Positions 1-44,100 of a stretch of DNA of 64,000 nt are shown here, piece after piece. The notes beneath the pieces are model-generated. The model ran no database searches. It saw only the letters and a list, made by a program, of their open reading frames with translations, and was not told the origin of the DNA. Origin of the DNA: Branchiostoma floridae (lineage: Eukaryota > Chordata > Leptocardii > Amphioxiformes > Branchiostomatidae); NCBI RefSeq assembly GCF_000003815.2, contig NC_049981.1:29769535-29833534 (forward strand). The letters run 5' to 3'. Position 1 is the stretch's first letter. Each line of letters starts with the position of its first letter. The translations under genes were made by a program, and so were the position numbers.

Positions 1-657
1 GGTGCTGGGTGGAAACAACAAGAGGATTGTAAATACACTAGGGATGTGTATCAAAACATACGAGAGGTTATCTCTAACACAGGGCTCTAGCCAGCGTCCG
101 TTTTTCCGTCAATTGACGGAAATTTGCTGCGAATGACATCCTTGGTGGAAGCTACAGGCGGCTTGGGGACGCCATCCACGGTCGGAAAGCCACACACTGT
201 TTGTTTTGCTATTGTTATTATTGTTGATGATGTGTGTCAGCGCTCTTTTGCATACGATTATCTCATTAAAAACCCGTTTTTCACAGTCTCAGTTCAGTCG
301 AAATTAGATCATTTTCACCGTTTTCGCGACAATGGGAATTGGCTGACGGATCAAAATTTCGAGCTGGCTACAGCCCTGCTCTAACATCCATAAATAATTT
401 CATCAGGTTGGTAAATACTCAATATATAGTACTATTTTGGTTGTGTTTCAAGAACCTTACTTAACTGTATATGAGAGGTGATCATTAAGTTCATAGCCTC
501 ACCCAGAAATAAGATGCATGATTAAAATTTTTGGACAATTCGCGGTGAAGGGGTCACAGCAAAAATGCTAACACACCTAAAATCAATGCTTATTGTGCAA
601 ACGGAATAATTCTAGCACCAACACAAGTATGACTATGATGACTGTGCAGTACCGTAC
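1..657. other. Intronic DNA of the helicase gene, no exon seen
   Basis: No collagen, helicase or other recognisable exon is seen. By position this is the intron following the GTC-GAG exon end at 658, whose donor reads gtacgg on the minus strand. The short open frame at 124-384 has no recognisable protein character. The stretch near 85-125 contains a small palindrome around tccgtcaattgacgga. Confidence 0.5.
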
Positions 658-3600
658 CTCGACTGTGGTGGCGCTCCTGTTCTGCTCAGTGCCGATCATG
701 TCCACATGTTTGGGCTCCGCCTTCATGTATTTCCTGGCGGCCTCGTGAACCCAGTTCGGCAGCGTGGCCGAGAAAAATAGCGTCTGCGGGTTCTGAGACT
801 TGTCGTCTGGAAAAAGGAGTGATCTGTTATTTTATCTTTAACTCTTCCACGCACTCTAGCGATATATATGCATACAAAACTTCTCCAAACATGAAACAAT
901 AAAAAAAACGGATGAACTTTCGAAATGAGCTGCCTAAAAGGGTGTCAAACACTATGGTCTTACAGTACAATCCTCAGATAGCATAATGGGTTCGGTTTGG
1001 AGCATTTCCTCAACTTTTCATCAGAAGAGGGAGCTCAGTGTCATCATAGGATTGTGATTGGTGTGCCCTAGGAACCTACCTTCTGTATATGTATCTATAT
1101 AGCTGCTGGTGTAACAGATAAAGCTACAGAAGCTGGTGTGTTATGGCAAGGGGCAGTTACACCGGCTATACAGATACAGAAGCTGGTGTGTTATGCCAAA
1201 GGGCAGTTATACCAGCCATACAGATATAGATACAGAAAAAAACATCTTATGAGGCTTGTAGGCTGCCAGGATTTCGTCCACTTGTTCCACCATTCCGATT
1301 TCCAACATGCGCTCAACAGGCAGTGTTCTACTTGAAAGTACAGTTCTATAGAAGGGCAGTGTTCTACAGTTCTATAGAAGGGCAGTGTTCTACAGTTCTA
1401 TAGAAGGGCAGTGTTCTACAGTTCTATAGAAGGGCAGTGTTATAAGGTCTATAGAAGGGCTCTGATTACCTTTTTTATAGGCGGCCTCCAGGATTTCGTC
1501 CACCTGTTCCACCATCCCCATCTCCAGCATGCGGTCGACCTCGTCCAACACGACATGGCGTAGCTCGGACAGGTTCAGCCGCCCGCTCCGAACGTGGTCC
1601 TGGATCCGTCCGGGCGTGCCCACCAGGATGTCCAGGCCTCTGTTGATGGCATCATCTGAGTGGGAAAATAGAGAAGATAAAATTAACTGCTCTTGCTGGC
1701 AAATGGTAGGCTCCACCAGGCCTTACAAGGAGGTACAGTTACTTATCTTTGTCCTGAAACATTGCATTGGACACACTTAAGAACATTTTAAAGTGTGGTT
1801 AAGCCATGTTGATTTAATTATTTGGATGACATCCTCTGGGAACCCAAAAACTGATGCGAGCATGCAAGTAAAAAAAAGTTTGACAAAAAAATAAGTTGCC
1901 TTCATCATGAAATCTAAGTGGCGAGGAAGGTTTAACAAATGACTGAACACACAGAATATAGAACCAGTATATCGAACAAGAGATTTTTCATTTTTATTCT
2001 TTCTCATCTTCTTTGACCTAGGAATATCCTTTGACATTGGCAAAAGTTTTTCAATATTTCTTTTTGCTTTGTACGATTTATGGTATGGTTGAAAGCTTTT
2101 TGTTTTTAGAAATGGCTGAAAATTGGTGCCATCGGGCTGATGTCATCCATATAATCAAATCAACATGGCCTTACAGTAAAAACTATGTAGATGTGCTGCA
2201 GAACAAGGCACAATAGGTCTGTGCTCCGATCCAAGGCACAACATTTCCTCTGGCTGTATGTTAAACCCCACTGTCATCGATTCACACAATCAAGGGAGTC
2301 TGGGTGGGATAAATGAGATACAGCAACATAGATCAACACAACTGAGCAAAATCAGATAAATAACAAGCAAACTATGTAAGTAAAATTTACTGACGTGTGG
2401 AAAGAATAGTTCAAAAACGCAACAAGAAAATCATAATTGATGAACGCAGTCACAACAATATGAAATAATGTCCAAAGATAGATACAGTTAAAGGGCAGGG
2501 AAACACAGGGCTGGATAAGAGTTACAGGGGATGAAACAGGGTAAGGAATAGGATTCTAGCCAGGAGCTTATTTCAGCGTAACGGTAATGGCAAGGTAGCA
2601 AAGCATTCATTGGTGTGGAAGGGGGTCTTAGTCCTTTTGTGCGGATGAGATTTTGGAAATGGCATTGTAAGGGTACCCACGAGGGGACCTAAAATCTTTT
2701 TATACCACGTTATTAGAAGGATTTTCTGACATTTACATAGTACATTCTATTTTCAGAAGCAAAGAGGCAAGTCACAGAGGAGAGTACCAGCTTATTTGGC
2801 CTGTCGTCAAAAGAATCGACACCATGGCTGGGTCATTAATATTTCAAAAGCATCATAATACGCCACCCAAAGTCTGTCCATGACAAGATGAATGAAGTTT
2901 TCTTTGTGTGACTTACTCTGCGGGGGGTAGGGAGTCCCTCCGTACACACAAAATGAGGTCAGTTTGGTGCTGATGCTCTTAAAGTCTTCATAAACCTGCA
3001 ACAAACAGATAAACTGTCATAAGTCACCAACGAAGCACCTTTATCGTGGGTTAGGTGCATAGAAATTATGACACAAAAACATTGTATGAAAAGAGGGCAC
3101 CAGATATGCCAACAGCATGAAGTAAAGAATGCCCCCTATCAATTTGTTTGGAAACTGCATGGCAGAAATGTCCAACTGGATCTCTGCTGAAAGACCATTA
3201 CTAATTGTTTGTTTATTTGTTTATTTGACCAGGTGTGATATCTTCAAGTTACCACTTTTTAGTGTCAAAACTCTACTGTGACATATTACAATACAGTTGA
3301 ACAAAGTATACTGAAATGCATGAGTATACTAAGTGCCTTTCAATGTCAAACTTGAATGTTATGCATAATAGATACATTTATCCTTCATAAGATAGGACAA
3401 GCAGTGTTTTTACTTCAATAGGAAGCAGGCTGGATAAAAATTCTAACTGGAAGCTATGTGACTCTACTGCCCACCCAAAAAAAACGTTTAGGGTAAGCAG
3501 GTTTTTCTAGGGTAGGTACATGTGTAGGGAAACAGGAAACACAACATTTTTTCCTAGGCCTAAGGAAAAACAAAGAAGAACAGATTCTGTCCGTACCTGG

Positions 3601-6600
3601 ATGGCGAGTTCCCTGGTGGGAGCGAGCACGATGACCACCGGCGCCCGGCCGCGCTTGATGGACACCCCATCTTTCTGCAGCCGCTCCACAAGAGGGATGC
3701 TGAACGCCAGCTGCACAGAAAACAGAACAACTTAATAACGCCACAGTTGAAACAACCTAATGTTATGCATGCCAAGTTAATAGCCAGGTTGCACCATCAA
3801 CATTTCAGGTTGCCCCACTTCTTCAGTTATTACTTACTTCAAATCAGCAACATGTACATATCCATTATCTTTTCTTCCACTTAACGTTACATTGAACTAT
3901 TTATGTTCCATCTTATCGGGAAATAAATACAAAAGCTTGTGCACGTAGCTCACGGAAAAGCAGTGTTCCATCCGCAAAATGTCAGGTTGCGCACTGTACA
4001 CGTGCTACCTCAATGGGTTTACTTTAAAATTAAGTTGCACTAAGCAAAATGTGGTTGCAAGTGGCAAGTGGATATTTTGAGCACCATGTCGGACCACTCA
4101 CATTAATCTTAAAAAATAAATAAATAAACCAAAAGATCAGCTCACCGTCTTTCCTGTGCCCGTTCTTGCCTGAGTGATGACATCCCAGCCATCGTACACA
4201 AAGTCAAAGGTACTGTACTGAACTGGGAACAATTTCACTACGTTGCGGGCTGAAAAAAAAACATTAGCAGATTTATAAAAAATATATATCTCATCATAGT
4301 TAAATACAACAGTGGTGACTTTCTTAACCTTAAGGCCTTATTGTTGATTTCCGTGGTCATTTTAAGCTTACAAAAACTTGTCAGTTTAATGTCATGAAGT
4401 TCAGATTTTATGGACGGTTTGAGTTGGTCCCAACAAGCATATTTCTCTCCCAGGATAGAGGGACAGGTCCTACAGACAATCCTGATACATGTGAATATAC
4501 ATGTCACACTAGAGATTGCGATTCAGGACAATTGCTGATTGTCCTATGATAGACTGCGATCAGGATCTGTCCTAGGACAATTGGTGATTTTACTAGTACA
4601 GATTGCACTTGGGATTTGTCATAAGACAAACTTGTTATAATAGACAGATTATCACTGTACAGTACAAACCTTTCAGTTTGGTAACTGTCTGTGCTGTGAT
4701 GCGGAAGTTTTCGAAGTCTCCCTCCTCTTTGGTTATGGTCCCATTTTCGGCCACCCCGTTTTCAGCCACCCCATTCTCATTTGCACACTTGTGTTTGTAA
4801 GGGAAAAATGGAACAGTTACCATGAAAGCTCATCTGTGCAGATAAATGTAGGTTACTATAGTATTGAATCAGACAGAGACCCTGATGCTGCTACCCAATC
4901 ATTGTACTGTGTACATTGACATTGTGCTCAACTCTAGTCCAGTGGAACAAGAGGTCTTATTTCTTCAGGCGTCAGTTTCAGTTCTTAGAGAGCACACCAT
5001 AGTCAACATTCATATTGGACTATACATGTACTCTAGTTACACAGAGTGAATACTAACAGCTGTCTTACTCTTACTCTTGTAACACACTTAATCATGATCG
5101 AAATGCGTTGAGACCAAGTACTATCTAGTGTTCAAAATCTTTTGGTGTAAAAACCAGGGATATGCACTGAACATCAAGCCTGTCAAGGTACTGTTACTTT
5201 ATCTGAATAGACTTACACTCAACTTTTGTGACTTGATACTTAACTAAAAACATGCAGAAAATGTAGCACTGGGCATAGATAAAAACACTGTATGGTCACT
5301 GAAACCAGTGAAAATTTTATTAGAGATCGTCTTGAAATTATCTTTTCTCAGCCCAAGATACCTAAATTCTAAATCAACATTTTGTTAGAGTCCATTCCAA
5401 GACACCATGAGGGTTTTTAGGCGATATTTATAATTAGTCTGAATTATTTTGAATAAAAGAATATCTGAGCCACAATAATTAAATTATTTTTAAAAAATTG
5501 ACGGAGAAAGTACTCATATATTTGAATTCCTTTGAATATTTTAGAAACATTTTGAAAGTAACTGTACAAAAATATCTTTATTTAGAATAATTGTGAAACC
5601 TCTGTGTGATTATTTGATGTTTACAAATATTTACAAAAAATGGTAAACCTCGCCAAATGGTTAAATTAGTTTATTGCCCCCATAAAAGTAAGCCCCATTG
5701 TTGTATCTGTATATTTTTAGATTTCACTGCTGGGCAATGGTGGATCCTTTGTGGTGGGCCATTGTTGCATGGCACCCAACCATACTTTGCAAGGATGTGT
5801 GAATTGCTATCTTCCCAGCCCACTGAATCATTTACAAAAAATGGTAGAAAATGGTAAATAATGGTAGAATGCTGTTATCATTATTTAGAAACCATTAGAA
5901 GTATCCAATTCCACACGATGAATATTTCCAAAGTTTTACAGGACCAGGGAAATATTTATAAAGTTGAAACAGTGTTACAAATATTTCTGAAGTATCAAAT
6001 GTCCTAGACATATAATTACAAAACTTTAAAATCAATTCTAAACAATGGCCACAAACATCCGCATGGTGTCTTGGAATGGACTCTATCTTTATCTATCATC
6101 ATTGAAGACCACATGTTACTTTGACAAAAAATAGTTAAGGTACAGCTTCAGGTCTGGACCTGTATTAAACCTCTGTACTGGTAACTGTACTTGGTGCTAT
6201 GGTACCTTTTCCTAGTAAAACTGCTCAAGATTCAACCCTTACCTCCCCATCTGACCCAGAAGCACCATTCTGTACATGGCCATTTTCTTCTTTTGTTTTC
6301 TTTTCTTTGTTCTTCTTTTGTTTCTTGGGGGCGTCGCCCTCTGCTTTGGTCTTCTTTTTCTTCTTCTTCTCTGGTTCTTCGACACTTTTCACAGACTTGG
6401 CAGCCTCTGTCTCCAACTTCCTTTTCTTACTCTTCTTGTCCTTCTTCACTTTCTCTGGCTGTGAACGAGTAAAAAGTAGACAAAGTCCATAATTTTGGCT
6501 TAAGTTTCTTTGGCTTCTTTGGCTTAACGTCCCGCCCCAAATGGATCATGTAAGACGTGAAAGCATCCTCAAGTCAATAGACATAGCTGTGCAAAGGCTA

Positions 6601-8096: not shown

Positions 8097-11000
8097 ATGG
8101 CTGACAGCGGTGAGACTAACTGGAGAAACCATCCTGACTTTGGGAAAGCGAAAAGAACGCCGGAGAAAGGCGGAGCGCGAGAGGGGGTGTGCACCCCTCC
8201 CCTCCCCCGCCGGTGCCGCCCGCTCGCACACCAGGTCGCCGGGCACCGGTATGGGCAGGGCAAGACCAAGAAAGGTTTGTGATAGGCTAGATTTCCTATC
8301 AAGACTAACATCCGGTAGAAATCGAATGGTACACAGGCTATCTAGGATCTGTAACTGGAAATACTGAACAACGCCCCTTTCTTCTTCTTTCTTACTGCCT
8401 AGCCTCTAACGTTAAATTGAGAGATTATTGGCAGACTACGCATGAGTTAATTACAATACAAGTGACCGGTACAAATAGACAAGGGAAAATGAAGGAAAAA
8501 TGCTAAGGAAAATGAAAACAAACTGATTTTGTGTGTGCAAAAGACAGGACAGGTGAATTAAGTGGGTTAATAGAACATATATTTTATAATACATATATAC
8601 AAGACGTGTGGGGGTGGCTCAATGCAGCAGGGTCCTCCCCAGCTCAGTTTTGAACTGGGACTAGAGACCCCGCCTCCGCCACACCAGGCTCAAGTCCATT
8701 CCACTCTCTGATGGTCCGAGGGAAGAACGAGAGCCTGTAGTAGTTGTTCTTGCACGCGATGGCCTGCAACGTTTTAGAGTGATTGGTGCAGCGGGAGCAT
8801 CAAGCCACCGGGACAAGCATGGTCGTGTGAGGTACATACATGATGTTGTTGATGATTTTGTACAAAGTGACCTGGCGGGCAATCTTCCTTCTAAGTTCGA
8901 GGGACTGCCAACCAAGAGTGTGAAGCATGGTGGTAACTGAGCTTGTGCGTCTAATCATTAAATAATAAATACATATCGGGCAGCTCTTCATTGCACCATC
9001 TCTAGGCTACTCACCTGGGCCTTGGTGTGAGGATCCCAAACACTACAGCCGTACTCAAGAGCTGGCCTAACCAGAGCCATGTAGGCTCTCTCTTTGGCCG
9101 CAGTGCTGGATATCCGCAGGCAGCGTCGTAACATTCCCAATGTCCTGTTAGCTTTTGATGTGGTTTTTTCAACCTGTTTGCCCCAGGTCAAGTTGGAAGA
9201 CATATGAAGGCCAAGATATTTTGTGGAACTTACCTTGGTCAGGGGGTGTTGGTGGAGGGAGTAGGGGAATGTTATCGGGTTTCTGGAGGCTGGGACCGAC
9301 ATTACTTCGCATTTGGACGGATTAAAGGCCATAAGCCACGTCTTCTCCCATGAACAAATGCTATTTATGTCGTGCTGGAGTTTTTCACAATCGTTCTTTA
9401 TTGAGCCTTGAGGTAACGTTAAAATACCAGGGAATAGGTTCTGTAAATGATGTTGTTGTAAATGATTATACGCCAGGCGTTCTCCGTAATCAAGAAGGAC
9501 TGCGTAACTTTTACCTTTTGTTTCTCTCCCAGGCATGTTACAGCATGAGGACGGGACCCTACTGAAGCCCCTTCAGCCTCCGCCGCGCGGACAGAAGGAG
9601 CTTGGCTTCTACCAGAAGATTTTTGAGGAGGAGACCAACGATCAGGACCTTCTCACCCTGAGACAGTTCATGCCAAAGTACCTGGGCAAGTTCGTTCCTG
9701 AGGATGACCCGTCACGTATCCTTTCTTCACTTTTTCTCTCTTTCTTCCTTTTTAAGTGCCATGTTGATCATTATGGCACACTCTTTGTTTAACGTCATAC
9801 CCTAGCCAAAGCTAGGTACTAATTTTCACCTGAGCGAAGTGGGGAAAGTCGCGTTAAGTGCCTTCCCCAAGGGCACAAGATCGGTGGCTCAGCAGGGTTC
9901 GAACCAGGGACCTCTTGGGTCTGAGCCAAATGCGCTGCTGATTACGCCATGCAAATCTTGCAAAACTTTTATAAGACAAAGAAAGAAAGAAGAAAATTCA
10001 TATCAAATCATAACCAGGTATCTAGCCGTACTATAGCTACCAATTCTCTTTTTTTTGTCCACAAATAAGTATTTGTGGAGAGGACAGAAAAGACTCGGGA
10101 GATACAGCTATGATACTGCTGGATGCCAGGCTAGAAAATTCAATCCCTACAACTGCATATGATTTGGAGATTACTTTCAGACTAGAATTCTACTGATGCT
10201 GAAGAAGAGTGAAGCATGTCTCTCAGAATGTCCAGAAGTAAATCCAGATCTTATTATATCATAATTGTTTACCTGATTGTCTATACTGGATAAATGCATT
10301 CATGGAACACATAGTTGACCTTAACCTTGCCCAGAGGTTTTTATCAAGCTGGAGGACATCACCAGAAAGTTCCACCAGCCCTGCATTCTGGATGTCAAGG
10401 TGAAGTGTAGATCTATAGTAGTGTACTAGCCAGCCTGAATTTTTTTCTGTCCCGTGGATTTTGAATTTGGAAATCCTGTTCCCTCAGGAAAACCACTCAT
10501 GACTTTCTGTGTCTAAACTCAGGTGGGGAGACGCTGTTATGACCTGGAGGCCACGCCCGACAAGATCGAGCGAGAGAAGAAGAAATATCCGCCGATCGAC
10601 ATTGTGGGGTTCCAACTAATGGGAATGAGGGTAAGTCATTAGCTAGAAATTCTGTGAGTTATATATTATAGCTGACAAAAATTGAAGTACATGAAGTGGG
10701 GCTGACCTCTTTTTTTAATACCTTCCATTTTGGATTGACTGAAGCTGTCGACCGTCTCCTAAGACGAAAAGAGCTGAAGAGAAGGCTGAATATCTAAAAC
10801 TCATACCTGTGCCTGTAAAATTGTGTAGGTACAGGTCCCTATTTTAGCTGCCTTGGGTAGAATCTCAGAGCTATCCGTGCTACTGCACACAGAATTCTTT
10901 TTCAACCAAGCACACAGAGTCATCACACCCTATCTTTTTGATAAGGGCATTGGGTTCTTTCACATACAGAGATTTGATGCAGAGATGTAAAGCTCCCTAT

Positions 11001-14206: not shown

Positions 14207-14935
14207 CTATAGTCTGGTATCCAGACATGATAATTAGGTTAATCAAACCTAACCCAGAAAGACATCGAGCTTATGTTGTGGTCTTCTAGATGCATCTTGT
14301 ACAGGACTATTGTGATGTATCATGTTCAGAACTACCTGTTGTCACATAGGAAGAGATAGAAGACCAGTGTCACTTACCTGGATCTGTTAAATCTTAGGTA
14401 CACTGTATGTTCTTCGGCACTCAGTGTAAGCGCAAACTCGTCTGTCCGGGGCTGTAACAGGCCCCTCCTCGGAGATGTTTTGCAGGCTGCTATAAGTGGG
14501 ATTTAATCAGGCTATGGCCTTCGGCAAACCAAGTACATCCCAGTTTTTTTTTAAGTGGCGTAGTAAGTTAGAATAGGCATAGGTTTTCTCTTAGTCTGGT
14601 ATCCAGACATCATTATTGGGTAAATGAAACCTAGCCCCAAAAGACAATTGGGTCATGTTGTGGTCCTCTAGATGCATCTTATACAAGACTATTGTGATGT
14701 ATCATGTTTAGAACTACTTGTTGTCATACAGGAAGAGATAGAAGACCAGTTTCACTGTCCTAAATCCAGTCATTTTTAGGTACTTCGGCACTCTGTGTAA
14801 CGCAAACTCCACTGGCCTGGACTGTAACAGGTCTACGGAGGTTGTGCGGGCTGCTATAAGTGTGATTTAATCAGGCTATGTCCTTCAGTAACAAGGTACA
14901 TCCCAGTTTTTTTAAGTGGTGTAGATAGTATAGGT
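14207..14935. repeat. Tandem duplication, unit about 380 bp
   Basis: The unit starting 'tagtctggtatccagacat' at about 14208 is repeated from about 14592. Matching blocks in the same order include 'ctagatgcatctt', 'gactattgtgatgtatcatg', 'gaagagatagaagaccagt' and 'gctataagtg'. Both copies carry scattered differences, so the duplication is not recent. Non-coding. Confidence 0.85.
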
Positions 14936-15063
14936 ATTGTGCATAGAAATATGGAATTATACAGTGTGATTGTTTAAAGTATGCAATGGTGTCACTGTAT
15001 ACTCTACTCTTGGAACAAGACTCGAATTGTACCTCAGGTATTGCTTCTGTGTTTTTCCTTCTG

Positions 15064-15808
15064 CCTAATGAACCCATACTGCAGAAATAGTTACCTGATG
15101 AACCCATACTACAGAAATAGTTACCTGATGAACCCATACTGCAGAAAAAGTTAACCTGATGAACCTATAATGCAGAAATAGTTAACCTGATGAACCCATA
15201 TTGCAGAAATAGTTACATGATGAACCCATACTGCAGAAATAGTTACCTGATGAACCCATGCTGCAGAAATAGTTACATGATGAACCCATACTGCAGAAAT
15301 AGTTCCGTGATGAACCTATACTGCAGAAATAGTTACCTGATGAACCCATACTGCAGACATAGTGACCTGATGAACCCATACTGCAGACATAGTTACATGA
15401 TGAACCTATACTGCAGAAATAGTTAACCTGATGAACCCATACTGCAGAAATAGTTACCTGATGAACCCATACTGCAGAAATAGTTACCTGATTAACCCAT
15501 ACTGCAGAAATAGTTACCTGAAGAACCCATACTGCAGAAATAGTTACCTGATGAACCCATACTGCAGAAATAGTTACCTGATCAACCCATACTGCAGAAA
15601 TAGTTACCTGATGAACCCATACTGCAGAAATAGTTACCTGATGAACCCACACTGCAGAAATAGTTACCTGATGAACCCATACTGCAGAAATAGTTACCTG
15701 ATGAACCCATACTGCAGAAGTAGTTACCTGATGAACCCATACTGCAGAAATAGTTACCTGATGAACCCATACTGCAGAAATAGTTAACCTGATGAACCCA
15801 TACTGCAG
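15064..15808. repeat. 30-bp minisatellite, about 25 copies
   Basis: The unit is tandemly repeated; its core is 'aacccatactgcagaaatag' plus 'ttacctgatg'. A few units have one extra base (ttaacc), which shifts register. Because 30 is divisible by three and the unit lacks stops in several frames, long artificial open frames arise on both strands. These are repeats, not genes: frames break exactly where the register shifts. Confidence 0.97.
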
Positions 15809-15984
15809 AGATCCGTCAGACAAAGGGAAATGATAACCCTCTCGTGGAGTAACTGTCCAGGCCGACTGTTTACCCAGTGTTTTTGGCGAAGTTTTCAATT
15901 ACTGTCCGCACCCCCGTAAGAAAGGGCCGACGGTGAAGGCTACAATTTTGTCACGATGAAGCCAGGTAACGTTTGTTATCCCCA

Positions 15985-26685: not shown

Positions 26686-27004
26686 ATTTTTTTCGACCGG
26701 CCTTCCCACCAACGTTGAGACCTGAGGAGGACTTCAGGGGATTTTACTAAACTATTTATAATCTTCGTATCACTGAGGCAATGAAAATTTACCAGGCCTC
26801 CTCGCTTTTGTTCTCTTCGCTTCTGATTGTCCAACAGCAACGTCACTCCCAACGTGCATTGTGGACTACACAATAGAGTGAAATGTATACACCTCAGAGG
26901 ATAGAAAACAACAGTGTAGAATGACGCTTCAACTTGGGAGCAGAAGATTTCCTTGTGGTCAAAACTACACGTCTCCTTGGCCAGCGAGGAAGCATCTTAA
27001 CGTC

Positions 27005-29071
27005 ATGGCGTCGCCTTTTCTCTGTCTCCTGACGTTCCTTGTGACGTCTGTGCTCCTGTGCTCTGCCCAGCCGACGTCGGTCTGTAGGCCACTACCGTCA
27101 GAAGAGAAATGCGTGTGTAACCTTACTTGTGGGAACGTAAACTGTGGCAACGAGAACACTCTCAAAGCAGAGTTGGAGCAGATGAAAATCGCCATGGACC
27201 AACTCTCACAGAATATAGCTGTTTTGCCGAAAGGTAAGACAACTTGGTGGATTATTATATGGCGCAATGGCCGAATGGGCCAAGTATTCGCTTTGTATTC
27301 AGTAGGCCACGAGTTCGACCTCCGGCCGAAGACTTTAAAATGGTACATCCTGCTTTCTCTGCTTAGCACTTAGCACTGATGACGAAGAGTATGGGAGCTA
27401 AACACACATCACTACCAGCGGACTAGCCCCCTGTTGTAGTGGCTTCACAAATGTGTGGCCCAAGTACTGCAGAAACGGAGATGGGCGCTACCCTCTAAGC
27501 ATCTGTTACGCATGTACTGGCAAGTTTGACCTAATGTAAATTATATGTCTTAATAGCATTCAGAGGTTACCATATGATTATGATATAAATGTGTACTGTG
27601 CCATCTACCCCAGCTAACGCAAACGACACAGTAGCCGACAAGCCCCAAGACTGTCAGGACATCCTCGACAACGACGAGACGACGCCCAGCGGCGTGTACA
27701 TGATTTATCCACGGGACAACCTGGGCGGCTTCATGGTCTTCTGTGACATGGACACGGACGGAGGCGGCTGGACGGTAAGTCTGGTCAGCTATTATGAATG
27801 TCAGAAGCTACATTTGTGCATTCTATTTCCATAGAGACCAGAAGAGGAACGCCCACCTCAGCACATTTCATAAACTCGTGAACAGCCGCATTAATGACTA
27901 CTAGTTTACTTACACCAGCCCAGGGCGCACCTTAGGGAGACTGGAGTGGAACTCCCTGCCTGGCGCGGTCGTGACAGCCCCCACAGTTGGGTCCTTCCGT
28001 GCCAGACTGGAGGCCAGCCACCCCACCCCCTTACCCACACACACACTTTGCCCCTGATGGCGTTAACTGCCGGCAACTTTTTGTAGATTTTTAGCTATCA
28101 GCATTTCAGTTTTATTATGTACACTTACAGTTGTTCCAGAAACGCCAGGATGGAACAGTCTACTTCTATCGGGACTGGGCGGACTACAAGGCGGGGTTCC
28201 CTTCCAACCTGAACGGCGAGTTTTGGCTGGGGAACGGCAAGCTCTACCGCCTCGCCGTGCAGAAAGTCTACCAGCTCAGGGTGGATATGGAGGATGCGGA
28301 GGGGAACACGGCGTACGCGACCTACGACTCGTTTGCCATCTCGCCTGAATCCCAGAACTACAAACTCCACATCGGGACTTACACCGGTACTGCAGGTGAG
28401 GTTGACAGGTGTACCGACAGTGCACTACATGACCCTGCCTGTTAGTTGAATGTGAACGTGTTGCATAGATACATGAATATCGTAGATTCTGCTTGCTAAA
28501 CTCGTTTCTATGTTCACGGTGAAATCTCCGTTTTCCAAATGCGCATACCAAAATAAAATAGCTATTGTGGTATTGTGGAGTAGCTTCACACTAAAGGAAA
28601 ACAAATTTGGCATAAAATCGTAAAAAGGACATACAATTGCTTGTAGAAACATGGACATCGGAGCCTAGATCTGAAAGACACTGTGATACAGAAATGATAA
28701 AGTCTAACAAGCATTGTCAAGAACTAATAGCTCATTTCAGCTTAAAAGATATCAAATGATAAACCAAGCCATGTGCACCTCGTTTTGCTTTTGGGAAGTA
28801 ATTGTCTGTCTTTGTCACAGGGGATAGCCTGATGTCCCATGACGGAAATCCATTCAGTACCCTGGACAGAGACAACGACGAGTCCTCTTCCAGCTGCTCT
28901 GAGTTGCTGAAAGGTGCGTGGTGGTACGGTGATTGCCACAGCTCTAGCCTGAACGGCCTGTACCGCTTGGGTACTCACGAAGGTGTCTACGACGGTGTCA
29001 TCTGGTTCTACTGGAAGGGCCCCCACTACTCATTGAAGCGCGCGGAAATGAAACTCCGACCAGCTCCATAA
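27005..29071 (+). CDS. Secreted fibrinogen-related (FReD) protein, 301 aa, four exons
   Basis: Exons are 27005-27233, 27614-27774, 28131-28395 and 28821-29071; phases agree and the stop is TAA at 29069. A signal peptide ([19 protein letters not shown]) is followed by a short Cys-rich segment ([16 protein letters not shown]) and a brief helical, coiled-coil-like stretch. The fibrinogen C-terminal domain then runs from about residue 88 (DCQDIL) to the end. It shows [39 protein letters not shown], the calcium-site segment [19 protein letters not shown] and LNGLY. The domain is full length (about 214 aa). An in-frame ATG at 26921 exists, but 27005 was chosen because the signal peptide starts there. 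Family members are oligomeric lectins or innate recognition proteins (ficolin/FREP-like). The exact ligand is unknown. Confidence 0.93.
27245..27475 (+). repeat. tRNA-derived SINE, family B
   Basis: It starts with a tRNA-like head containing an A-box-like 'tggcgcaatggccgaatggg' and a B-box-like 'gagttcgacctcc'. The body blocks 'aaaatggtacat', 'tctctgcttagcac' and 'catcactaccagcggacta' are shared with the split copy at 11420-11945. It lies in intron 1 of the FReD gene. Confidence 0.7.
27829..28060 (+). pseudogene. LINE 3' tail remnant in a FReD intron
   Basis: The plus strand encodes a typical non-LTR retrotransposon C-terminal tail: [17 protein letters not shown], a stop, then [20 protein letters not shown] and [13 protein letters not shown] ending at a stop near 28057. 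The rest of the element is missing. Confidence 0.75.
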
Positions 29072-29795: not shown

Positions 29796-31715
29796 CTAAT
29801 TTCGACGCCTGCACTCTGATGTTGGTAGTCCGTCAATTCCCTGGAGCCCAAAAAAGAGGAGCTTGTATGAGTTTTTGTTCTGCGCTTTGACCATACTATA
29901 TTATACAAACAAATCTCGTACTAAATTTATATGTTTAACATCAATAAAAGAAGCCGGAGTATTATAATAGTTTTGGAACCCACGCACCCTTCGCGAGAGA
30001 ACTATGAAAATTACCCCTTTTCTGCAAATGCATCACAACTATGTAACGTTAGTGTTCATAAGAAACTAAACTGCCAAATATGTTACCTACCACTGGACAA
30101 GAATGGCCACGCTTTCCCCGTTTGCCTCTGTTCCCCTGCTCACAAGAAAACATACACAAGAGGTGAAACAGCAAATAACAGGAGTAAGTTACGTCGATGA
30201 AGGTTAGACATCCAGGTAAAGTAATTACTCAAGCAACTGGATATATTTTGGAAACGGTCAGACGTTTCAGGTAACACCCACTATTGTTCGTCAGTGATAC
30301 TGAACAGATCTGTTGAGACCATGCAGCGGGGTTTGCGATCAAATCCACAGATCTACTCAATGTCACTGACGAAAGATAGAGGACGCTATCTGAAATTTCG
30401 GACAGTTTCTAAAATCATATCCAGTTGCTTGAGTAACTTCTATGTAGTGTATGCCGTGACTGTTTTAAGTAAATACTAGAGTCGAGAACCAACGCAATAA
30501 CTTGGTGAGGTTTTAGTTGCATATAAAGAGATTATATGAGAGCCCTTACCTTGTCTCCTTTTGATCCCTTCTGACCCGGTCTTCCTGGCGAACCCTTAAT
30601 GTGATATAAAAGAAGCACACTTGTGAAACGCATACTCTCTTTATGAGTCGAAAGTTCCCGCTAGCGGTCACACACTAAAAACTTAACGTGTAGCACATGT
30701 ACAGTGATAATATTGGATATTTCTTATTTATCTACTAGTATTTGTTTTGTATCATAGACAATGAGTCAACTAGACTAGAGAGACTACCCAACCATGCCAA
30801 GGGAAGTAAATAAGATATATAGACTCGCAATCAGCAGGTTTGGAGGCAAGGTTAATAAGGCCTTCACACTGACACCGAATCAGCAGGAATCAAGAAGAAC
30901 CAAACGGAATGAAGAATTTGCAAAACTCGTGCCACATTCGGGCGGGAATTCCAAATTTTCACACGAGAGGCGGAATGAGCTGGAATGCAATGCACCAGAG
31001 TCAATGTGTTAATATACATGAAGTGTTGATATACATAAGAAAGTGTACTTATAATGATACGACGTGTAAGCCAAAACTATTACAGGTATGGTTTGAATAT
31101 TTCAATTTTTAAAAAGATATGTCATGGTTTGTTACCTGTTGCCCAGGAGGTCCCGGGGGTCCGGAAGGGCCAGGCGGACCCGGGATCTACAGAGAAGGCA
31201 GAGCCAGAGAGAGTACAGGTAAAGTCCCTCTTACAGCCGGATGTTTGGCAGAGAGAATACAGGTCATATGTATGTCCATCTCGTATACATAAGGGCTCAG
31301 CAGGACAATGGTTAACTAAACTAACTACCGTACCAAAGCGGTGTGGAGTCGGTGTTGCACAAAATTGTGTGGCCTTGGGCTACAGAAACGGAGATGGCCA
31401 CCGCCAGATCGATGCACCATCTGGTACTTTGTGGGAAAAATCCAACTAGATACATAGGGTGATGGTTAACTAAACTAACTACCGTATCAGAGCGGTGTGG
31501 AGTCGGTGTTGCACAAAATTGTGTGGAAACGGAGATGGGCGCCGCCCGACTTAACTAACTACATAGGACAATGGTTAACTAAACTGCCATACCAGGGCGG
31601 TGTGGAGCCGGTGTTGCACGGCGCTGATCAGCTCCATGCGCGGGTCGGGCGCCTGCCGCATCACCCGGCTGGCTCGCCGCTTCTGGCTGCCGGGGATCCC
31701 GTTAGCGCCCTCGGG
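29796..31715 (-). CDS. Small collagen-like gene or alternative 3' end, five exons (partial)
   Basis: Minus-strand exons are 31715-31593 (41 codons), 31186-31136 (IPGPPGPSGPPGPPGQQ), 30594-30550 (GSPGRPGQKGSKGDK), 30135-30091 (GNRGKRGKRGHSCPV) and 29840-29796 (GIDGLPTSECRRRN, then TAG). All are phase 0 with AG/GT borders. The last two resemble the C-terminus of the large collagen to the right (KRGH, CPL, then [10 protein letters not shown]) but lack LDAP and the Trp after the final Cys. The first exon is mostly non-collagenous (QKRRASRVMRQAPDPRMELI) with a basic, furin-like site. No 5' exon with start codon or membrane anchor was found between 31716 and 38146. It could be a decayed paralogue, a short gene whose 5' end I cannot see, or an alternative 3' end of the large collagen. 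Confidence 0.7.
30225..30436. mobile_element. TIR element with ttactcaagcaactgg ends
   Basis: Left 'ttactcaagcaactggatat' and right 'atatccagttgcttgagtaa' are exact inverses, and homology continues inward for about 45 bp. A solitary end is at 11949-11972. It sits in the intron of the small collagen between 30135 and 30550. Confidence 0.88.
31303..31620. repeat. Tandem copies of a collagen exon-intron border
   Basis: A unit of about 60 bp, 'atggttaactaaact' to 'ggtgttgcac', occurs three times (31303-31370, 31456-31527, 31570-31620). The rightmost copy is the real 3' end and donor of the exon at 31593-31715. The other two are decayed copies in the downstream intron, keeping 'gcggtgtggagtcggtgttg' but with the donor altered. 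Confidence 0.85.
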
Positions 31716-34040: not shown

Positions 34041-37000
34041 TCTTTTAATCTGACTATACTAACCAATCCCTGCAACTATGTTACAAAAGGTAGACCTATC
34101 CACTTAAGATTGTTCTCTAGCAGTTCGTTACCAGTCTTAGATTTGTTTGAATTGACATATTACATTGGTATTGGTAGTGTGACTCAACCGGCAGAGTGTC
34201 TTACTGTTTCACCATGCAAAATCGTATAGCTGTATCAATCAAGTCTGTATCTCAAGCTAGACGCATTACGGAGTATGCATTTGGCATGTTTTGGTTCCAC
34301 AACACTCGAGCAATTAAAACGAACACCAGACATTCGAACAATGATACAGTTTATTGTAGAAAAGAAACATTATCTCATTAACGTTAATGTTCAATACAGA
34401 GATACAACGTCAATACCGTTAGCTACATGTTTAGAGCTACAACGTGTCGGCAGTTTGAGTCTGCTGCAATTGCCTTACATGTATATTACCTCTATGGCTG
34501 GGTTTGGTTAACAACAGCACTAAACTGTTAACTGGCTATTCACAGTTCTGGTAGGCTAGACTCATCTTCAGACAATATACACTCTCGACGACAAAACATA
34601 GAAACATTCACACCGTAAATACAACATTCACAATCGTTACATTCACACTACGACCTCATGCGCTTGATGGTCTTCTGTCTGATCACCAAAAAATACAACA
34701 ATGTCTTGGAACTTCCATGTCTAACAAGTTTGCATGATTGAAAACAACAACATGTGACTTCAATATCTGTGTCTTTTTTCACAACCATAGAAAGCTTACT
34801 TCGTTATGCTGGTTGCGCATTACTACCACGAAGTAGTACATGTGGACAATCAAGAGCCACTCGCATTTTGCTAGACGGGATGGCTCTGCTTTGTTCTTTA
34901 TAAACACAATTAAGTATTGAAATACAATCAAGTATTTAAGTACAGATGGTCATCAGATTTCCATGAAATAACATCAGTTTGTCTGTTAAGCTGCTTCGGT
35001 TTTATTTCTTCTTCTTAAACCCAATCATAATAAGGAATGGCGAGTTGAATCTACTATCACCAAGAACACTACAAGCTCAGTTGACTGAGGGAACTCAGCA
35101 AGTTACCCAACACCTGTATTCTAGCATAACATTATGTCTACTTTCATCAGCACCATACTGTTCACTTTAAAAAGTACCATCTGCTCAACTCCTCTCCACA
35201 AACAGATAAAACCTGGCTGAACATGTGCTTCGCCTTAAAAATAAATACGAACTTCTTACGTATACATACGACAATGAAAGCTACGGTATGAACAGAAGCT
35301 ACACAAAGGCATCAGATTTCCTGATAAATAAGTTGAAATACAGGGTAAATGTAAAATGCTCACATCTTGAGCAATACACCAATAAAATCTTATGTACATA
35401 GATTATAGATGTATTCAATATGTTAGTTGATTCTACCATTTCGCACCTTCCTCCTAACTGTACGTAAAAAACACTACCGCAACTACCACTAAATTCTCCA
35501 TATTTACAAAATGTTTACAACTTCTTTTTTTTTTAGACATATCACGACTGGTCATAAAATTAGACCATCAAAGCCAGGCGTAACTCGATAAATGCTGCTT
35601 TTAAACAAATGCCATGTTTGTTACAGCTTACACTAGGTTAGGTATGGTTCAGTGAACTAAAATGAAAATTGGGTGCTGTTGCAAAACACTGGGCAATACC
35701 AGACCATAGGCACAGTTCATGGCCTCAAACATAAACATACATTGAAGTTGTGAATGTTGGGCATCAAAATGTCTACTCAAAGATAAATCATTTCCAATGA
35801 AACAACCAGAAATACTACCTCTGTAGTGCTTGTGCGTACGCCACAACATATGCGTCTCTGAGAAATTTACAAAGTCGATGCTGGCTAAAGTGCCAACATT
35901 ACCAATTTCAGATGGTCTCTTTAAATCAAAGTTTCAGACATTTTTGTGTGTGTGTGAAAAAAATGTCTTTTTTTCTGTGGGATGTTCAAGACCCCCGAGT
36001 CACTGAAGTTTTTCAGTGTTCAGACAACAGCAATGGAATGACCAAAAGAAATGTGTCTGGAGTCACAAAGGTGTCACAGGTTCAGCTTGATGCCCTTCAA
36101 GCTGTCGAATCTGCTGAAATGGTTGGTACTCTTTCAGAACACACATGTATACAGTGGAGTAACCATGGTTGCTGTTTCTAGTGTGTTCTTGCTGCTATGA
36201 CACCCGTGATGATCTTAATGTCGAGGAACAAACATGATGAGGGTGCTATACTGACATAATATGGTGCCATGATCATAAAAAAATACATAGGAAAACAGCC
36301 ACAAATCTACCAATGAAGTCCTGGATAACGTCTATCAACCCTGGGTGAGCTGTCATCGGTGCTGACACCAGCTGGAAGGTCCTTGTGCTGCTCTTGCTTG
36401 TCTTTTGCTTCCTCCCTCGGCCCCACAGTCCAGACCCTAACATACCTAACTTCACTGTCCATCACAGTTTCGGATCTTTCTTTCTCTCTTTCTGGATATC
36501 TTCTTGTGATTGTCAGATGCAACATCAGCAAAACAGCTCCCGTCATGCCACCACCGTTACACCATGAATATGCATGAGGGAATGCGATGAACATTGAATG
36601 GTGATTTTTTTTTTGCTGTAATATCTCGATATGTCCAGACTGAGGAATTTTGGGTTGGTGCACCGAAGTTTTCTCAAACTATGTACCTGTCTCCTTTCGT
36701 CTCAATTATAAAGAATCCCTGAAAAAATTACGGACGAAGGGAATTATTACTAAGTTACTTGACTACATTGTTGAGCTGTTTTCCTGTTAGTAATTTGTTG
36801 GAAGTACCATGCAGCACCAAATGTCTAGCCCCCTAGTTCCTAATGCCATTAGTACTTGGTCAGTATACAGAACTGCCACGTTATAACTCGGCTAGAAGAT
36901 ACTCAGACCAGACCAAAATGCCCAACCTTGTTAATCAGCGAAGGTCAATCAGATGGATCAACATTAGTTGTTATCCTTTTGGGAGTGACGTGGGGACAAT

Positions 37001-38146: not shown

Positions 38147-38197
38147 CTAACGCCGCACCTTCTGCCAGCACCCAGCCAGCGGCAATCCGTCTTCTCC
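38147..38197 (-). CDS. Terminal collagen exon (C-terminal NC domain)
   Basis: A 51-nt exon, 16 codons plus [19 protein letters not shown]. The acceptor 'ggttttcag' is at 38200-38198. The G-x-D-G-L-P-x-x-G-C-W ending is the diagnostic C-terminus of the XIII/XXIII/XXV group. The Cys pairs with the Cys of the APCPL motif in the previous exon in known family members. Confidence 0.92.
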   Translation of the reverse strand, partial: GEDGLPLAGCWQKVRR

Positions 38198-41100
38198 CTG
38201 AAAACCGAGAAAAAATAAAAGATGTACAAAAGAAAGGGGGCAACAATCTTAAAACCTGATGCCTGGGTTAATAAGACATGTAAAACATTCAAAATCATCA
38301 CCAACGACATGAAGTTAACATCACTGATACATTTATAATCAACACAAAATATAAATTTATATATATCTCAGACACATATTAACTCATACACACACACACA
38401 CATACAACACACACACAAGTTGACACAACATACATATATATATAACACAAACACATCATACAACACACACACCACATGCATATAACAAACACACACACAC
38501 ACACACACACACACAAACCACATACCCAAAATCATGCCCATCTCAATTTCTATGAACTGGATTGATTTATGTGTGTTTTGCAAATGAAATTGGCTTGAAA
38601 AAAATTGCAGATGTGAGTTTACTATCAACTGCTTTTGATGAAATCATGGTTTCTCCAATGAAAGATCTTGAAAATGCGCAATTAAGTTCACACATGCTTC
38701 TTTGAATATGAAAACTTCAAATGACATCCATACAAATGGACCCTGGTGCAAGCACATGACATTACAGAAAAGCAAAGCAAAGCAGGACGCAAGCATTAAG
38801 TGTGTCCAGCCTAATGTCTAACAAAATAACACGCTGTCAAAGAAAGCTTATTTCCTTCAAGAGCAGCTGTAACTTTTCCTTTATGTTGGTGTTGGAACTT
38901 GTTTTTACCAATTTGTAGACTTTGTAATAATACAAGAAGTGGTATGTCATTCCCTAATATACACATCTTTTTTTTTAAACGACAAACATTGAATTCATCA
39001 AAGACAATCCGTATACTGCAAGGCTCATGTTTGGGAAAATCGTACAAGATACTCAATATTTCAGGGATATACAATTTACTGCACATGCTTACATGTACAT
39101 ATTCCCTCATAACCAACCTGAATCATTTAAAACAGTATCTACACACTGAATATTCAAAGCAGGGCTGTTCCAGCTTTGGATTTTCCCGTCTACTCCTTGT
39201 TTGGAGCCAATGTTTTCTTTTTCTCTTTTATCAAATTCGTCATCTTAAGCTTCCAAAGATACATTTTCACCAAAAATCAATTCCTCAAGCATATCATAAA
39301 AGAGACAGAATGATACATATTGATTGCAACATTACCATGTATACTGCAAATTCAAAACACCAACGCAAAGGAAAAGTTCCATCTCGAACAACAAAAATTG
39401 AACATCTTGACTAAAAAAAAAATAGGCTGATTGCAAAAGGAAGCTATTAGGCCAAGTATTACTAGTGTCAATAAATGCATTAACAAAGGCAAGGGGAAAA
39501 GTGTAAAATGAAATGAAATTTTTTTAGCAACATTTTCCTTAAAAAGCAAATTACACAAAGAAACTGCATTGTATTGGTTATACATGTACATCGGCAGGGA
39601 TAGCTGTACAAGAAAAGAACAGAAAAGACACAGGGTTGTACAAACAAAAAAAGGAAAGCAACAAAGGAGACAGCTGAAATGATACTCATATGATTGGCAC
39701 TCAGCATTAAAGCCACACCCATTTAATCTCCTGGTTCTCCGATATTCTAATCAAATATTCGGTAAAATAAACAGAGGTTTGAGAAGAAAAGTGACTTCAG
39801 TCACATCCTGATATTGTGTGACAAGTGCTCCTCTGATATGTTTAATGTTGACATACAAATTCAGCATAATTCAGCAANNNNNNNNNNNNNNNNNNNNNNN
39901 NNNNNNNNNNNNNNNNNNNNNNNNNNNNNNNNNNNNNNNNNNNNNNNNNNNNNNNNNNNNNNNNNNNNNNNNNNNNNNNNNNNNNNNNNNNNNNNNNNNN
40001 NNNNNNNNNNNNNNNNNNNNNNNNNNNNNNNNNNNNNNNNNNNNNNNNNNNNNNNNNNNNNNNNNNNNNNNNNNNNNNNNNNNNNNNNNNNNNNNNNNNN
40101 NNNNNNNNNNNNNNNNNNNNNNNNNNNNNNNNNNNNNNNNNNNNNNNNNNNNNNNNNNNNNNNNNNNNNNNNNNNNNNNNNNNNNNNNNNNNNNNNNNNN
40201 NNNNNNNNNNNNNNNNNNNNNNNNNNNNNNNNNNNNNNNNNNNNNNNNNNNNNNNNNNNNNNNNNNNNNNNNNNNNNNNNNNNNNNNNNNNNNNNNNNNN
40301 NNNNNNNNNNNNNNNNNNNNNNNNNNNNNNNNNNNNNNNNNNNNNNNNNNNNNNNNNNNNNNNNNNNNNNNNNNNNNNNNNNNNNNNNNNNNNNNNNNNN
40401 NNNNNNNNNNNNNNNNNNNNNNNNNNNNNNNNNNNNNNNNNNNNNNNNNNNNNNNNNNNNNNNNNNNNNNNNNNNNNNNNNNNNNNNNNNNNNNNNCACT
40501 GAGCTGAGGTGGGCTAGTAGCACTGAAGTGGACGTTCACTTTACGTTAAAGTTCTGTAGGTCTCTCATGTCCCACAACTGAACTGTAGCAGGGATAAAGG
40601 TTCTTTTTTTTTGTACTAAGATACAACCGATCACCTTGATCTCGGAAGTTAAGTAACGCGCAGTCCGGTCAGTACTTGGAGGATGAGAGACCACCCAAGG
40701 ACAGAGACCACCCAAGGATGACCAAAAATTCACGAATTTGTAACAAAATTGTAAAACTGGGGTCTCATGTTCGAGGAGGTGCCTCAATCATGTAAATCAG
40801 CCTCATTACTTAAAAAAAATTGGGAACCTACTGGCTGCAAATACACCCGATATTTAAACAGCTACACTGTACAGTTATTCCTTCTAAATCAGACAACCAA
40901 GAAATTAAAGTGGAGTGAGTGAGTGTGTGAGTGTGGCCTGAGCCTTAAGAGTAAGGCCCGACTACCACCGAGGTCAGATTTATGACAGGGATAGGAGGGG
41001 TGCACCAGGGCCGCAGCAGACGGCACAACATCGGTCACAGATACGACTCACGACGACGACGACACGGGCGGAGGGGGGACACCAAACTTACCAATGGACA

Positions 41101-44100
41101 CGGAGCGTCCAAGCCCGGCGGTCCCGGCTCGCCCTTCTGACCCTGATGACCCCTCTTGCCTCTTCTACCTCTCTCTCCCTGCAAGCGTGTCACAACACAA
41201 GATAGGAAAGGATTGGCCGGGGGCACTTACCACAGGACATGGGGCATCTAATCCGGGAGCGCCGTGATCACCTTTTTCACCTTTTTTTCCTGATCTGCCT
41301 CTTCTACCTCTCACACCCTAGAGATGTCCACCAACACAGTGTAAAGAACACACCTCTTTCCCAACCACCTCGGACTATAGGACCATCCGATAATATGAAG
41401 CACTAATACTTGTAGGAGTTTGTTTTCTTGCTAGAACGTGGTGGGTGGGGGGCCAATCTACATTATGACAGAAAAGAGAGTTTTAGGACTACTTTGATGT
41501 CGTCCTTCAAGACCAATTTTAGGGGTATTTTCTTTTAAAAAGAGACAAGGACAATTTGATACTGCACATCTATCTTAGAAGTGCCACGTTCAAATTTTGA
41601 AACCACAAAGGAAACCAATTTGACAAGAAGTTGTACATGTTTGGACAACTTAAGTGTGCACTTAGATTTGCCTGTTAGCAACCGTTACAAAGAATGACCC
41701 AAGATAGAGCGACAGTCTACCTCATTCTAAAAATATCTTGCAAGAAACAGGGAAAAATTTAAACAATGCGATAAAATGGGAATTTTTTAGGCTTTAACTA
41801 GAGGGATTCATGTACGAGAAACGGGGAAAAATCAAAACAAAACGATCCAATAAAATGGAAACTTTGAAAAATTTTAACTAGGAGAGCATGCATTTCATCA
41901 AGGAATGGGATGATGTACCAGCAAAACAAACTCCATCAAGTATTGCCGAATGATATGATATGATGGTCCTACAGATGAGTAGTTTGTCCTGCCTTAGCCA
42001 CAGTACTTGTAGATGCCGGACGCCATGCCACGAGTGCATTACCTTCGAGGATACTCATCCAGTTTGCACAACTGTGTCTGATTCTCCAAGACATGAGTGG
42101 TACTGGGAAAGAGGTGTATGCACACAAAACATCTCAACCTCTTCCCTTACACCCAGATGTTTTGTGTACATTCAAACGTCACTTGCCTAACTAAGCTTCC
42201 GAAACTTCCACCCAAATAAATGTTTGTTTGTTTTTAAATTTCAATACATCACAAAATCGTGCAGAATATATCGTGAATCGTCATTTCGTTTCTGTTATCA
42301 TGGTTAGTATGTTAACTGTTGCAGTACATTTCATCACAGAGAAAAGATTTCAAGCCAAAGCTGGTCAAGTTCATTGCAGTGCCAAATGCTTCTTGACTAA
42401 TTGCAGCTAAAGTGATGAGCTAAACTTTCAGCTATTAATTTTCCCCATGATTTATATTATTTTGTGGAAATCTTCCATCATTTTCCAGTTAAGAATATCT
42501 ACAACTTGTGGTCATAATTTGGTGCTTGTGTTGTAAACTGCTGTCATACAAAAGTGTACAACCCTTGCACTTCTCAAGAAGCTTGGCACTGTTTCACATA
42601 TCCACACGTTATCATCATGCTCAAAGAGTTAATAGCTTGTTATCCATGATATAAGCAACACTGCATGAACCGTCAGTTACGTCATGCCCAAATATCCGTG
42701 CTCATAACATTTGGGCTCTGTTTCTATGGCTGGATAGATGGCTTCATTGAGTTGTAGTCAGAGTTTTAGAAAAAGAAACTGAAAAATCTTGACTGCAATC
42801 ATCAAGAGTTTGTTGGAGATTTTTTTCCACAAAGTAAACACTATTGCCTCCTAACTAGGGGTGGGTACTGGTACCAGAAATTCAGGTACAGGTACGGTCT
42901 AGGTCCAGAGAACCAGGTCCAGGTCTGGACCTGAACCTGGACCTTACTGTCTGTGAAAACTTGACTTACTTGTGAATGAGCGATACTCAAAACAATGGTC
43001 CATTTCACTACAAATGAATCTGTTTGGTGGTGTATCCTATTCCTACAGGCATTATATAAAATCCTATCTTGATGTAAACAACATGAATGCCAGTTTGACT
43101 GGAGAAGTCTCAAAACACATGATTGCCTGTATAATCTGTTCATTTTCTAGTAGGTCAATAATACGGTCTACTGATTTTTTTCAGGTCTGTCTTTTCCGGA
43201 CAGGTCCAACTGTTTCAAGAAAAAAGGGTTTTGTACAAGTGCACCAAGACATCAGGTGTTGCAGTAAATATCTTAGTTGTGTTTTTATGTCATATATAGA
43301 TATCTTGTATCCAGTGAACTCCAAAGCCACCTATCAGCACCTGGGATTGTTTTAAAGCCCCACATGTACAAGACTGTGAGGTTTTGAAACAACCCTGTTT
43401 GAACAACGGGACATACCTGATCACCCTTCTGTGCTGGAGGACCTGGATCTCCCTGTAGAAGTGTAAGAAGCAAAACTTTAGACACAAAAAAACACATGTA
43501 GGTATGAATGAATTTCAGCCTAAATGTAGTAACTGTTAGTATATTTTCAATTGTCATGCTGAGTTCTTTTAATATGAGATATGCTGGATAATTCCGTAGT
43601 CATATTTCCCAACTGGGGCCCAGCCGGGCTGTTTGGGGAAAAAAAGCCCATAAAAAAAGGGCATATAAAAATTAAGTTCATTATCACAACTTTTGTTAAT
43701 GTTTTTTTGTGTCTTCTAGTAATTTGTAACATACTTTCCGTTCCTGCTTGGCCAGACCACATTTTGGAAATAAGACCATAGCATAACTGAGTAAGCTCCA
43801 AGCAGATGTTGGAGAGGAATATTGTAAGTTTTAATGTAATGTTTTGTGACTGCCAGGTTTCTCTTACAGCTTAAAAACTTAGCATGACAATTTATTCTTC
43901 AGAAAATCCAAGAGCAACCAACACAATTTACAGTATCAACAAATTCAAACGGAATGGGAAATTCACATCAAAGAATACAAGTTAATGTTGTATATCCATT
44001 TAGTACTCATAGAGAATTGTTAGCAAAGTAGAAAGGTTAAGTAAGTATAACAATAGACAGCTCTCAGTTAGGTAAACGATGACAAGAAATCACAAGGATC

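Follow-up and report, generated by a model that had tools for sequence, protein, structure and literature searches.

The present analysis concerns two adjoining collagen exons, designated B and A, in a stretch of 64,000 nucleotides (nt) of the Branchiostoma floridae genome (NC_049981.1, positions 29,769,535 to 29,833,534), which is called the window and whose own numbering is used throughout. The window contains the 3' part of a collagen gene on the minus strand, and further exons of the gene continue upstream outside it. The best reading of the pair, with a probability of about 0.75, is that B and A would be used in a mutually exclusive manner enforced by an intervening intron that is too short. 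Mutually exclusive splicing had been proposed in a preliminary description of this DNA and is still the best supported reading; we infer it, together with its steric enforcement, the use of both exons and a functional difference between them, from the exon pair and the geometry of the intron.

The exons that take part are listed below. Splice sites, here and later, were scored with a home-made generic matrix.

43417..43452, minus strand: upstream collagen exon, constitutive-looking, bounded by AG and GT, phase 0
41231..41317, minus strand: exon B, 87 nt, phase 0 at both ends, open, bounded by AG and GT, ends LDAPCPV
41179..41230, minus strand: intron between B and A, 52 nt, GT-AG (gtaagt...ttgcag)
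41092..41178, minus strand: exon A, 87 nt, phase 0 at both ends, open, bounded by AG and GT, ends LDAPCPL
38147..38197, minus strand: terminal exon, acceptor score 8.0, ends VRR and a stop

The coordinates given earlier for B and A, their size of 29 codons and their phase of 0 were exact on the minus strand, the junctions flanking the pair at 43417 and 38197 were correctly placed, and the shared ending LDAPCP(L/V) was present, with V in exon B and L in exon A. In the proposed mechanism, the exon ending at 43417 would join either B or A, and the chosen exon would then join the terminal exon at 38197. With too short an intron between them, B and A could not be joined efficiently; the branch point for A would lie no more than 43 nt from the 5' splice site of B, and the complexes at the donor of B and the branch point of A would hinder one another. 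The animal would have two forms of the collagen tip distal to the membrane, both of which would keep the conserved GLDAPCP-GxDGLPxxGCW end.

In a pairwise comparison, exons B and A were identical at 19 of 29 residues and, at the DNA level, at 57 of 87 bases. With the common APCP tail excluded, 7 of the 16 X and Y positions in the eight Gly triplets were identical. Random triplet sets taken from this gene attained this level in 101 of 100,000 cases, and shuffling of the triplets of exon B itself did so in 400 of 100,000; the resemblance of the two exons exceeds chance. Genome-wide pattern counts, which covered the 513.4-Mb assembly (431 contigs), gave two sites for a degenerate GLDAPCP pattern, exons B and A, and none for the reversed control. 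The DGLPxxGCW pattern had one site in this gene and one on a different contig; the latter has a stop inside and was put down to chance. The 291-base region itself had a single match in the assembly. Since GLDAPCP occurs only at these two exons, DGLPxxGCW occurs once in the gene and the region is unique, the locus looks like one gene carrying two copies of one exon.

Mutually exclusive exons have been predicted from 1) similar length, 2) conserved splice sites and reading frame and 3) homology (PMC3228551), and all three were found here, with lengths of 87 and 87 nt, AG/GT boundaries with phase 0, and the residue identity given above. The same properties also fit 90 of 16,180 fly X-chromosome exons annotated as non-exclusive (PMC3228551).

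The adenines of the 52-nt intron are at positions 3, 4, 17, 18, 28, 41 and 43, plus 51 within the final AG. For any adenine before the 3' AG taken as the putative branch point, the distance from the donor is at most 43 nt and falls below the limit of about 50 nt, and the earlier remark that the segment leaves little space for a branch point was borne out. When human HBB and EMD were tested, about 90% or more of splicing was lost at distances of less than 47 nt (PMC11291888), and in a human survey potential steric interference, with a distance of less than 50, was found in 57 of 629 exclusive clusters (9%) (PMC5740500).

Intron sizes in the same genome were estimated from the coordinates of neighbouring Pfam matches, with an error of a few residues, using 133 of the 142 PF00063 (myosin) rows and 78 of the 103 PF00209 (SLC6) rows, chosen by eye. 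The 59 myosin head introns had a minimum of about 111 nt and a median of 204 nt, while the minimum of the 33 SLC6 transporter introns was about 120 nt. None of these 92 estimates was near 52 nt, so that introns of about this size probably make up less than about 3% in the two gene families, which are a sample and not a species limit. The rows left out (9 PF00063 and 25 PF00209), when checked with their neighbours, gave estimates of 130, 2433 and 5507 nt, and a further apparent value of 168 nt, no ordinary intron, where both flanking matches cover one stretch of the SLC6 model; five single rows contained intron-like excesses of 192 to 309 nt. In the collagen gene model, which was drawn by eye and includes the downstream candidates described below, the next shortest of 20 introns was 217 nt. 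Given the distance of at most 43 nt and a shortest sampled intron of about 111 nt, the splicing of B onto A would probably be inefficient. Another possible close exon duplicate was noted in the SLC6 family, where the first stretch of the model is matched twice (contig C7, 214065-214190 and 214263-214349), the matches lying only 72 bases apart in one open frame.

It is unlikely that both exons are included in one mRNA, with removal of the ultra-short 52-nt intron and two GLDAPCP motifs in succession. In favor of joint inclusion, B and A are in frame when joined, and splicing of introns of 43, 49 and 56 nt occurs in human (PMC4463651); set against this are the short distance from the donor to every candidate branch point, the lack of introns of this size among the 92 estimates and in the gene model, and the prospect that a Cys-containing, non-collagenous motif would recur inside the helix. 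The same human introns weigh against exclusive use, since they mean that 52 nt is not an absolute bar to splicing, and the distance limits quoted above are human and may not be those of amphioxus. Other points against exclusive use are 1) geometry alone excludes the joining of B and A, the junction being in frame, 2) an excess of 42 nt with an internal stop was seen in one SLC6 row, a counter-example if it is a real intron, 3) no duplicated intronic element was found before the two exons, the likeness TGTGTTG..GACA being non-significant (661 of 5,000 shuffles equal its score), 4) a 619-base assembly gap at 39878-40496, between exon A and the last exon, could conceal an additional exon and 5) collagen genes usually have adjoining exons that share phase and resemble each other in sequence and are constitutive, which weakens the prediction rule.

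Two other causes of exclusion were considered. Incompatibility of U2 and U12 sites was set aside by eye, as each donor reads GTAAGT and each acceptor has a final AG, and enforcement by the reading frame was rejected because the frame is preserved when B is joined to A. A retained 52-nt intron shifts the frame and brings in a stop that ends 73 nt short of where exon A ends.

The third codon positions of A and B agreed at only 9 of 29 codons, and the synonymous distance was saturated and not computable, with a nonsynonymous distance (dN) of 0.22. Both exons have nevertheless retained the reading frame, the Gly repeat, GLDAPCP and the GT/AG sites despite the saturated third positions, which argues that both would be in use. 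The pair would be best explained if the penultimate exon of this probable membrane-type collagen had been duplicated in tandem long ago. That one of the two is a decaying duplicate, out of use, is very improbable: the weaker 3' splice site of exon B could be taken as a sign of decay, but the features just named are intact in both copies, and this is not expected of neutral decay over such a time.

The gene resembles the vertebrate collagens XIII, XXIII and XXV, the MACITs, an assignment suggested by its conserved C-terminus with two cysteines and by its interrupted helices. The C-terminal motif GLDAPCP(L/V) is followed by GxDGLPxxGCW, with two spaced cysteines, as in the human comparison sequence; the gene has many short Gly-X-Y exons, one with the interruption GPPAQKGDQ, and a joined set of its exons gave a Pfam Collagen match. 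Collagen exons extend upstream past the window to about 79.15 kb (window numbering), where the first of them is GPPGRRGKRGRKGDTG. This exon and the C-terminus appear to match the respective parts of human collagen XXV. The two features that point to the assignment are among the properties by which MACITs are defined, namely a conserved C-terminus with two cysteines, interrupted helices and type II membrane topology (PMC4678570). Upstream of the first collagen exon, about 64 kb were searched and no transmembrane exon or juxtamembrane furin-site exon was recognised; it may lie farther out or be too diverged. A 2015 survey identified no MACITs in Branchiostoma floridae or belcheri (PMC4678570). 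The collagen family and its conserved tail had been named rightly at the outset. The further statement that APCP occurs once, followed by GxDGLPxxGCW, was right as to the tail, whereas "once" needs a caveat in view of a diverged third module (GHSCPV and GIDGLPTSEC) about 8 kb downstream.

The two exons had also been expected to give forms of different charge next to a trimerising end, and neither part of this was sustained. The net charge is +4 for exon B and +3 for exon A and hardly differs, while there are 3 prolines in exon B and 5 in exon A; helix stability and the layout of the basic residues would appear to differ more than the charge. A trimerising role of this end is not established, as the MACIT paper ascribes help with trimerisation to the juxtamembrane coiled coil and describes the function of the C-terminal region as unknown (PMC4678570). 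For this reason the pair would give the collagen a choice of membrane-distal tip, not a choice of trimerisation seed.

The description of both exons as having good AG/GT sites held for the donors, which scored 5.8 and 5.0, whereas the acceptors were weak (-2.9 for B and -0.3 for A). The 3' splice sites of 11 of 13 upstream exons scored 0.5 to 8.9 and the other two were as low or lower (-2.4 and -6.8). The agreement of third codon positions between A and B was uneven, at 6 of the first 7 codons against 3 of the remaining 22 (Fisher p 0.001), or, for codons specifying the same residue only, 5 of 6 and 2 of 13 (p 0.0095), the split at codon 7 having been picked after inspection of the data. A run of five identical codons between A and B was attained by 393 of 100,000 shuffles. 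The identical stretch occupies the following positions.

41296..41312, minus strand: purine-rich stretch GAGAGGTAGAAGAGGCA in exon B, 17 bases, identical in exon A
41157..41173, minus strand: purine-rich stretch GAGAGGTAGAAGAGGCA in exon A, 17 bases, identical in exon B

Because the stretch is purine-rich and the 3' splice sites of B and A are weak, it is a reasonable guess that it may be a retained exonic splicing enhancer that aids exons with such sites, although local gene conversion would explain the identity as well. The introns downstream of A and of B showed no significant likeness (4,967 of 5,000 shuffles attain the score). The weak acceptors and the retained stretch would also suit a scheme in which B and A are cassette exons, used singly, skipped together or rarely joined, and regulated by weak 3' splice sites and enhancers, not by intron length. 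Exon skipping is frequent in the MACIT genes of worm and mammals (PMC4678570), but skipping of both exons would leave the tail without its conserved first cysteine, a residue that the collagen XIII variants always retain (PMC4678570), and cassette use is quite unlikely.

Mutually exclusive use of B and A may not be the only variation at this end of the gene, as several candidate features were noted in and beyond the terminal exon.

38159/38158, minus strand: possible internal 5' splice site in the terminal exon, AAG/GTGCGG, after the K of ..GCWQK, score 3.7
34350..34355, minus strand: AATAAA with a G/T-rich stretch (0.72), consensus match only
31593..31715, minus strand: candidate downstream exon PEGANGIPGSQKRRASRVMRQAPDPRMELISAVQHRLHTAL, AG 2.4 and GT 2.5, open, membership in the collagen gene putative
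31136..31186, minus strand: candidate downstream exon IPGPPGPSGPPGPPGQQ, in phase
30550..30594, minus strand: candidate downstream exon GSPGRPGQKGSKGDK, in phase
30091..30135, minus strand: candidate downstream exon GNRGKRGKRGHSCPV, in phase, a diverged relative of A and B
29796..29840, minus strand: candidate last exon GIDGLPTSECRRRN-stop, in phase, parallels the main terminal exon

The score of the internal donor falls within 2.2-6.0, the span of 10 of the 12 scored upstream donors, and the AATAAA is likely to be the poly(A) site that would end the short form. The third module, GNRGKRGKRGHSCPV-GIDGLPTSECRRRN-stop (30135-29796), parallels the CP-G-DGLP...C of the main terminus. From 38.1 down to 31.2 kb the minus strand contains no run of four or more Gly triplets, so that the downstream candidate exons, as a separate gene, would lack an obvious start. 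They could belong to the same gene as an optional long C-terminus, or be a piece of a separate or dying partial tandem duplicate. A wider scheme, in which one MACIT-like gene would have a choice of tips, B or A, plus an optional longer C-terminus reached through the internal 5' splice site and ending in GNRGKRGKRGHSCPV-GIDGLPTSECRRRN, the conserved C-terminal peptide having been turned switchable in this lineage, is tentative and rather doubtful.

Exons of a DDX21-like RNA helicase occupy approximately 600-6540 on the minus strand (best PDB match Nucleolar RNA helicase 2, E 1e-22), with a partial second copy of a helicase exon at 1241-1320, also on the minus strand, about 200 bases downstream of the first and, by eye, a short tandem repeat between them. 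Human DDX21 and COL13A1 share one chromosome band, and for this reason the linkage of helicase and collagen may be old. A 194-residue open frame at 8988-9572 on the minus strand resembles by eye the end of the reverse transcriptase of a non-LTR (long terminal repeat) retrotransposon. A minisatellite-like array lies at 14871-15898, with a unit that repeats in translation, for instance TISAVWVHQV or NSYLMNPYCR depending on the strand, and a convergent gene on the plus strand (26882-29071) has a signal-peptide-like start and exons for a fibrinogen C-terminal domain (Pfam PF00147).

In the tropomyosin type of exclusion, known from an unrelated gene, the donor and branch point are too close for joint use, and the alternative exons of C. 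elegans let-2 are mutually exclusive. Human OGDH exons 4a and 4b are exclusive through branch points 25-41 nt from the donor (PMC7969005). The vertebrate OGDH pair, like B and A, consists of homologous adjoining exons with a donor-to-branch distance under the steric threshold; in that unrelated gene, the branch points were mapped by experiment and lie far from the 3' end of a longer intron, whereas the collagen intron is only 52 nt long in all and its branch point is putative (PMC7969005). MACIT variants of mammals and of C. elegans col-99 belong to the same family, as judged by the C-terminal tail, and are heavily alternatively spliced, but by exon deletions, with collagen XIII keeping the C-terminal peptide that the amphioxus gene encodes in two versions (PMC4678570). 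Alternative splicing of let-2 is also developmentally regulated in a collagen gene, by ASD-2, but concerns another region of a type IV basement-membrane collagen under the control of a STAR protein, and no enforcement by a short intron was seen in the portion of that paper considered (PMC3469465). No published report of this exon pair was found among the matches listed (titles and starts of abstracts), no match combined amphioxus, collagen and mutually exclusive exons, and neither amphioxus intron sizes nor a collagen case was found in the literature search.

The mechanism is already known; what seems to be new is the gene, the lineage and the choice falling on the conserved terminal peptide of the family, no such case having appeared among the matches listed. 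The 52-nt intron offers a clean test of the minimum length of an amphioxus intron. If the reading is true, a MACIT-type gene would be placed in the cephalochordates, where the 2015 survey had none, and two natural versions of the tip in one gene would provide a direct handle on the function of the tip.

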